This document shows positions 27,264 through 27,838 of a stretch of 32,185 bases of DNA, one piece after another (within the stretch, counting starts at the first letter, position 1; every line of letters begins with the position of its first letter). Location: assembly GCA_016936155.1 (NCBI GenBank), contig JAFGPO010000097.1, positions 1 to 32,185 on the forward strand. Direction: 5' to 3'. Under the pieces are notes generated by a model. It was not told the origin of the DNA. It searched no databases and saw only the letters and a list, made by a program, of their open reading frames with translations. The DNA comes from Caldifarciminota bacterium (GTDB lineage: Bacteria; Hydrothermota; Tepidihabitantia; SM23-42). A program made the translations under genes and the position numbers.

Positions 27264-27348
27264 ACACCATGGGGTGACCGGATAGCCGCTCCATGTGAGA
27301 GGAAAGTCCGGGCTTCACAGGGCAGGATGCTTCCTAACGGGAAGCCCT

Positions 27349-27634
27349 GCACCTTCTTTGTCATATGAGATTAGGGATGGATTATCGCTATGCATTATGT
27401 TGACATTCTTGAGAAACGGAATAATGAGGAGATCTATATCGGTTGTACTAACAATCTCAAGAGAAGATTTCGAGAACATAATGTCCACGGTATGAGGTGA
27501 GATTTGATTTATTATGAAGCATACAAGGCGCGAGAAGATGCTTACTTACGGGGAAAAAGCTCAAGTATTATGGTCAGGTGCTTGGTCAACTTAAGAGGCG
27601 CATTAAGAATAGCCTTGTATGACAAAGAAGGTGC
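27349..27634 (+). mobile_element. Insertion 1 in rnpB: inverted-arm element enclosing a decayed GIY-YIG ORF
   Basis: Perfect 17-nt arms GCACCTTCTTTGTCATA (27349-27365) and TATGACAAAGAAGGTGC (27618-27634) with a 252-nt interior. Confidence 0.82.
27390..27622 (+). pseudogene. Degenerate GIY-YIG endonuclease (small UPF0213-like type)
   Basis: MHYVDILEKRNNEEIYIGCTNNLKRRFREHNVHGMR, in-frame TGA at 27498, DLIYYEAYKAREDAYLRGK, then -1 frame KLKYYGQVLGQLKRRIKNSLV and TGA at 27620. Confidence 0.82.
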
Positions 27635-27667
27635 GGGGGGAAAGTGCCACAGAGAACAGACCGCCCC

Positions 27668-27838
27668 GCACCTTTGATGTGATATGAGATCAAGCAGGTG
27701 ACTATCAGTGGTGTGCGTAGGGTCTATACAATGCTGGAGTGTTGAAGATAAGGTTAGTCGTACACGCGATCTCAAAACGATCAGCTCTGGAAAAACAATA
27801 AGTGCGTACACTCAAGCGTGTTATCACATCATAGGTGC
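27668..27838 (+). mobile_element. Insertion 2 in rnpB (P12 position): inverted-arm element with eroded interior
   Basis: Arms GCACCTTTGATGTGATA (27668-27684) and TATCACATCATAGGTGC (27822-27838) pair with a single T-T mismatch; 137-nt interior. Confidence 0.75.

Follow-up and report, generated by a model that had tools for sequence, protein, structure and literature searches.

The RNase P RNA gene (rnpB) in the 32,185-nucleotide stretch of DNA analyzed here, hereafter the window, carries two insertions, elements A and B, which are probably decayed copies of a compact selfish element that resembles the intervening sequences (IVSs) of bacterial rRNA, inserts in hairpin tips and is putatively moved by the GIY-YIG nuclease it encodes. 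The two belong to one family, dispersed within the window genome and across many phyla, with a preference for the apical loops of RNA genes and for tRNA ends. Its members measure ~260–340 nt and combine an open reading frame (ORF) of ~77–86 codons with inverted repeats of ~17–25 nt that start with CCC(C/A)NCAC. It is the nuclease ORF that identifies the family; an earlier note, which had described the two insertions from the sequence alone as homologous elements with shared ends, had overlooked it.

The conserved catalytic core of the host gene is intact in the RF00010 alignment. The promoter in front of it is predicted to drive rnpB, and by read-through it would also serve element ORFs on the sense strand. 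The features of the window are as follows.

27236..27263, + strand: consensus sigma-70 promoter TTGACA-16-TATAAT before rnpB (12/12 consensus matches)
27270..28047, + strand: rnpB, class A RNase P RNA, with two insertions (RF00010, 236.6 bits, E 5.7e-76)
27345..27638, + strand: element A, 294 nt, at the tip of helix P9 (inverted arms; RF00010 alignment; homology to the intact element on contig C4 of the window genome, G000)
27345..27365, + strand: left arm of element A (21 nt, 95% complementary to 27618-27638, one mismatch)
27366..27372, + strand: subterminal TGAGATT of element A, 5' strand of an internal helix (pairs with AATCTCA at 27453-27459)
27390..27617, + strand: broken GIY-YIG nuclease ORF of element A (tblastn, 58% identity; comparison with the intact C4 ORF)
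27453..27459, + strand: AATCTCA of element A, internal partner of TGAGATT, within the ORF (codons N-L-K; pairing and covariation)
27618..27638, + strand: right arm of element A, inverted-repeat partner of 27345-27365
27664..27842, + strand: element B, 179 nt, a non-coding decayed copy at the tip of helix P12 (inverted arms; aligns with ORF-bearing elements)
27664..27684, + strand: left arm of element B (21 nt, 95% complementary to 27822-27842, one mismatch)
27685..27691, + strand: subterminal TGAGATC of element B (pairs with GATCTCA at 27768-27774)
27768..27774, + strand: GATCTCA, internal partner in element B, kept despite loss of the ORF (pairing and covariation)
27822..27842, + strand: right arm of element B, inverted-repeat partner of 27664-27684

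Both left ends sit where the earlier note had placed them (27345-27371 and 27664-27690), and their near-identity was recovered by an unbiased repeat search as the top direct-repeat family (28 nt, 82% identity, 319 nt apart). A and B also close with the same right terminus, AGGTGCGGGG, as had been described. The arms had been given as 17 nt; they are 21 nt long with one mismatch each, and the 17 nt correspond to the inner part from GCACC. Alignment to RF00010 agreed with the proposed location of the second insertion in P12 and moved the first from P10 to P9. In element A, the nuclease ORF is interrupted by an in-frame TGA (27498-27500; Trp in relatives) and by a 1-nt frameshift within ~27550-27559, past which the tblastn match continues in another frame. 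Element B has no ORF, yet it retains the internal motifs of the family when aligned with other elements. Both RNAs fold far better than shuffled sequence, with z-scores of -4.43 for A and -4.81 for B.

A genome-wide search with the left-end motif, allowing up to 3 mismatches, gave 6 matches in 2.49 Mb compared with 0 for a reversed control pattern, so the left-end repeat is not due to chance. Four of the six are true element ends, namely those of A, B and two further copies on contigs C4 and C16. The matches on C102 and C44 have no inverted-repeat partner and were rejected as elements. The C4 copy (G000:C4), found with the motif and then with the nuclease protein, is intact: its inverted arms (88-112/358-382 in locus L004) have the same ends as A and B, and its 77-codon ORF encodes a GIY-YIG domain (PF01541, 50 bits). 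It begins immediately 3' of the last base of a tRNA-Ser gene. The third copy, on C16, has its left end within P3 and its right end within P12 of another rnpB-like sequence. The same ends thus bracket an intact nuclease ORF at C4 and recur at C16, which bears out the view of A and B as homologous elements with defined termini. In outgroup rnpB genes, the P9 and P12 tips are short and unrelated to the element, and these uninterrupted hairpins are without the motif, which is therefore not a generic feature of such strands.

At G000:C16:3553-4080, the left side of P3 is joined to P12 through one copy of the element and the core strand between them is absent; this could have come about by deletion between two copies of near-identical sequence, or else the assembly collapsed here. 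Most of C16 matches the window at just 70–79% identity (90% in one 221-bp block) and the bin of the window genome is 6.7% contaminated, so that C16 probably represents a related organism within the bin. Synteny between the two is supported by a cobalamin riboswitch that lies upstream of rnpB in the window (25034-25221; RF00174, 59.4 bits) and another on C16.

Further copies were found in rnpB genes of the window genome's own family, candidate division WOR-3/TA06/Stahlbacteria. They occupy P12 in G003 (with an intact ORF), G004, G005, G012, G018 and G021, P9 in G012, G017 and G018, P17 in G012 and G021, and P3 in G003; G004, G005 and G018 are single-contig genomes. This recurrence in P3, P9, P12 and P17 of at least seven related genomes supports the earlier suggestion that the elements enter helix tips by way of C-rich/G-rich ends. 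The shortest copies that persist in rnpB measure 100 nt. Several empty P9 sites in the same family hold a short CCGCACC-loop-GGTGCGG hairpin, in our reading the scar of an internal deletion, though it could instead be the insertion target. The scar reading is supported by two loci that have a full element in P3: L158 also has a P8 hairpin, CCCAGCACATAGTTTATGTGCTGGG, built from the same ends, and L132 has CCCCCACCTTTCTTTGAAAGGTGGG further along the gene.

Other rnpB inserts were also observed. L071 (G002) and L077 (G018) contain extra inserts of ~37–72 nt in the P13/P14 region, without element ends. L070, L052 and L059 (G001, G015 and G011, respectively) contain a P9 insert of 46–70 nt with GCACCTTTCAATT ends, and a nested CTCTCCC..GGGAGAG hairpin is present in at least two of the three; these inserts are perhaps remnants later invaded by another repeat.

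The element ends are maintained as pairs. Among 12 WOR-3 copies, the arm sequences differ from copy to copy, and complementarity was 0.86 for arms within an element versus 0.59 for arms of different elements. The TGAGAT just inside the left arm had been described as shared by A and B and not mirrored at the right end; this holds, but the motif is not unpaired, since a second, internal helix pairs TGAGAT(T/C) with (A/G)ATCTCA (27453-27459 in A, 27768-27774 in B) and so explains the missing mirror image. The partner lies in ORF codons and persists in copies that have lost the ORF. For the resulting two-helix structure, 94.3% of cells pair across the 12 elements and 11 pairs have changed on both sides, a count that leans towards structure, as the segments were excised and joined by hand before alignment. 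The covariation score was 0.375 versus 0.119 for shuffled alignments (0/500) and at most 0.09 when the segments were slid. In ORF-bearing copies, there is also an apparent conserved helix at the right end (ACAAGGC/GCCTTGT).

A covarying internal helix beside an arm would suit a self-splicing intron, whether of group I or of a new class, that carries a GIY-YIG homing endonuclease; group I introns typically carry such ORFs, and genuine examples of these introns are present in the window genome's family (L026, L037 and L038). However, the group I core (RF00028) had no match in the window or in any inverted-repeat element, nor did any such element match another Rfam intron. The insertion sites are variable apical loops rather than conserved core positions, the persistence of 100-nt rnpB copies does not fit an intron, and the GIY-YIG insertions published from rRNA genes of the candidate phyla radiation (CPR) are unlike group I or II introns (PMC11270868). 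We therefore consider splicing introns a very improbable explanation. The GIY-YIG genes of relatives that are not part of an element (UPF0213-like genes and group I intron ORFs; L022-L027, L037 and L038) provided a natural contrast and are mostly without tight inverted repeats. In L021:2-394 (G043), a different GIY-YIG ORF has a near-identical copy of a tRNA segment on each side, the second of which overlaps the ORF end; this arrangement suggests a tRNA-targeting element of another type.

Comparison of nuclease ORFs gave pN values of 0.07–0.29 against pS values of 0.64–1.1; the ORF is under strong purifying selection. The catalytic Tyr, Gly, Arg, His and Glu of GIY-YIG enzymes are present in the family, the window copy itself being broken; Y5, Y16, G18, H30 and E55 are invariant across A1, and R26 is invariant in A2. 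By sequence, UPF0213 proteins (1ZG2, 1YWL) are the closest relatives of the nuclease, which is also weakly similar to the structure-specific endonuclease SLX1.

To survey the family more widely, genomes representing GTDB species were scanned with a set of five proteins, rnpB-borne copies among them, which returned 426 relatives; the best 80 of these were analyzed. Inverted repeats closely flank the ORF in 72 of the 80 (score of at least 10; shuffles had a mean of 6.5 and a maximum of 10). Letter shuffles served as the null because cross-paired arms were contaminated by the common end motifs. The best 80 are spread over Patescibacteria, Omnitrophota, WOR-3, Nitrospinota, Elusimicrobia, Planctomycetota, Dehalococcoidia, Cloacimonadota and two cultured Desulfotomaculum-type species, Desulfofundulus thermosubterraneus and Desulfotomaculum copahuensis, which carry copies in 23S rRNA.

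Site classes were assigned to the best 80 from Rfam matches and a reading of the flanks. At least 10 of the 80 lie in rnpB (P3 in L132, L139, L154, L158, L177 and L179; P12 in L112, L113 and L145; P9 in L119), a share that may be inflated because the query included rnpB-borne copies. Twelve lie at tRNA 5' ends and one in a tRNA D-loop. Three lie in 23S rRNA, near E. coli positions 1860-1870 (L144 and L169) and 2790 (L149), and two in 16S rRNA (L163, where nt 66-102 are replaced, and L164). From the E. coli structures, we take the 16S sites to be h6 (L163) and h44 (L164), and the 23S sites to be near H68 and H98. At all the rnpB, rRNA and tRNA sites identified, the ORF is on the strand of the RNA gene. 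About 50 of the 80 are at sites outside any recognized RNA gene. Target type follows the nuclease tree, with 15 changes compared with 29.3 after shuffling (0/200); a tRNA clade (support 97) and an rnpB clade that mixes WOR-3, Planctomycetota and CPR (support 87) were recovered from a tree that rests on 84 columns and leaves many forks without resolution. Viral contigs yielded five weaker relatives with 40–45% identity over partial length, and among these there was no sign of a phage vector.

Several loci of this survey had further features. In L134, L141, L150, L168 and L181 (Colwellbacteria/Jorgensenbacteria/Parcubacteria-type), copies ending in ACCCAGCAC or ACCGAGCAC lie in an unannotated sequence that recurs among them, taaaggg..ttgt...caaaacc | gctcaa..., and that may be an unrecognized structured RNA or a repeat. 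L122:1771-1839 is an ORF-less mini-element of ~70 nt at a tRNA 5' end with CCGTA on both sides, a MITE-like derivative, and short paired hairpins with the same GCACCTTC ends lie next to the ORF-bearing copy of L165.

Because the genome also carries copies away from rnpB, the nuclease ORF is conserved under purifying selection, and rRNA and tRNA loci of other phyla contain members of the family, it is hardly credible that A and B arose by intragenic duplication or by natural lengthening of rnpB helices, without any mobile element, even though both lie in one gene, have ends in common and occupy helices, P9 and P12, whose length varies among bacterial rnpB genes. Intragenic duplication, raised as an alternative in the earlier note, is not needed to explain the family; locally, one of A and B may have been copied from the other.

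Flanking sequences carry traces of insertion. Direct repeats of at least 4 nt flank 22 of 61 elements, compared with 3.1% of cross-paired controls, and are concentrated at tRNAs (10/11, versus 10/35 at other sites); the target duplications at tRNAs and at some other sites measure 4–9 nt. The tRNA sites have the layout GGGC-CNNTA-[GCCCC...GGGGC]-CNNTA-GCTC, in which five bases of the tRNA, nt 5-9, appear on both sides of the element, whose own right end rebuilds the acceptor strand, so that the tRNA stays intact. At rnpB, none of the 10 sites scored, those of the window type included, had a duplication of at least 4 nt, and rnpB copies may thus have arisen by a different route, such as loop replacement, conversion between hairpins or loss of the repeat.

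The absence of duplications in rnpB, together with the decayed state of A and B, would also agree with passive intervening sequences, that is, hairpins that owe their spread solely to ordinary horizontal recombination among RNA genes and whose GIY-YIG ORF is cargo kept by selection for a different function, for instance DNA repair or defense; published rRNA IVSs likewise encode a protein, S23, of unknown role (PMC4990558). By contrast, the same nuclease lineage occurs at unrelated sites within one genome (rnpB and tRNA-Ser), tRNAs and intergenic sites show target duplications, the type of target goes with the nuclease lineage, and recombination between homologous genes cannot give rise to new sites. 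Passive spread is thus an unlikely, though not far-fetched, account of the family.

We favor a selfish element moved by its own nuclease, the step of mobility itself being putative and inferred. In this model, the GIY-YIG nuclease would cut DNA at targets that encode hairpins, and the element would be copied into the break, aided by its C-rich/G-rich ends. The ORF would be expressed by read-through from the promoter of the RNA gene. In the transcript, the arms would fold as a helix stacked on the host helix, leaving the RNA core able to fold with no need for splicing, as in bacterial rRNA intervening sequences. Decay after insertion would affect the ORF first (as in A) and the interior next (as in B), and a deletion between the arms would finally leave a short hairpin scar. 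A bolder proposal, which we put forward tentatively and regard as possible rather than probable, is that the family forms a distinct class of minimal transposable element, with a stand-alone GIY-YIG nuclease of ~80 residues as its mobility enzyme. Such an element would recognize hairpin-forming DNA, insert hairpin-ended DNA at the tips of essential RNAs with a 4–5 nt duplication and use the promoter of the RNA gene, so that the RNase P RNA transcript would double as mRNA; classical rRNA IVSs would then be its relatives or fossils.

Bacterial rRNA IVSs, described from Salmonella, Leptospira and Coxiella, are inserted at helix tips, have complementary termini and a small ORF that is decayed in some cases, and are presumed to be selfish (PMC4990558). 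The present elements are alike in their position in the helix tip of a structured RNA, in complementary termini that extend the helix, in their small ORF and in its decay in some copies. They differ in that the ORF encodes a GIY-YIG nuclease (PF01541) instead of S23p, the S23 protein giving no match to the element ORF in Pfam or NCBIfam. They differ, too, in location, since the main targets include RNase P RNA and tRNA genes besides rRNA (P9 and P12 of rnpB in the window, and also 16S and 23S in relatives), and in that many copies have an intact ORF under purifying selection and target duplications occur. A further hallmark of rRNA IVSs is their removal by RNase III with no ligation afterwards.

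Tsurumaki et al. (2024) reported GIY-YIG ORFs, not within group I/II introns, in CPR rRNA insertions at scattered sites, and most of the insertions surveyed lie at the top or base of a stem-loop (PMC11270868). That study covered CPR rRNA genes only, treated GIY-YIG insertions as rare and did not mention inverted repeats (PMC11270868); its GIY-YIG insertions are very probably the same elements as the present family. In the open-access literature, we found no earlier report of the family in rnpB or at tRNA genes, of its inverted ends or of its duplications, and a search of the same literature for GIY-YIG together with RNase P RNA returned no title or abstract on bacterial rnpB.

The element shares its catalytic domain with the GIY-YIG homing endonucleases of group I introns and probably also spreads by cutting empty targets, but it is without intron or splicing signals, has inverted-repeat ends and uses several unrelated targets per lineage. 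With insertion sequences and MITEs it has in common terminal inverted repeats, non-autonomous deletion derivatives and, at part of its sites, short target duplications, whereas its targeting of a hairpin tip or tRNA end and its sense-strand bias set it apart. No recognized transposase (DDE, tyrosine or serine) was found in the element with Pfam and NCBIfam, the GIY-YIG nuclease being the only encoded protein. Rickettsia palindromic elements, the STRR repeats in cyanobacterial rnpB and mitochondrial double-hairpin elements are likewise palindromic or repetitive and are tolerated inside RNA or protein genes; to our knowledge, none has a nuclease ORF.

The origin and movement of bacterial intervening sequences have been an open question since the first description of one in 23S rRNA. 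The family reported here makes this question directly testable: its nuclease ORFs include intact ones under selection, its ends are clear, and it offers both target duplications and copies in cultured hosts. The elements bear on the annotation of rnpB, since long genes are split or missed, and on how the helix tips of RNAs are viewed as sites of insertion. They also show that parasites can occupy several helices of an essential ribozyme gene of which just one intact copy is present.
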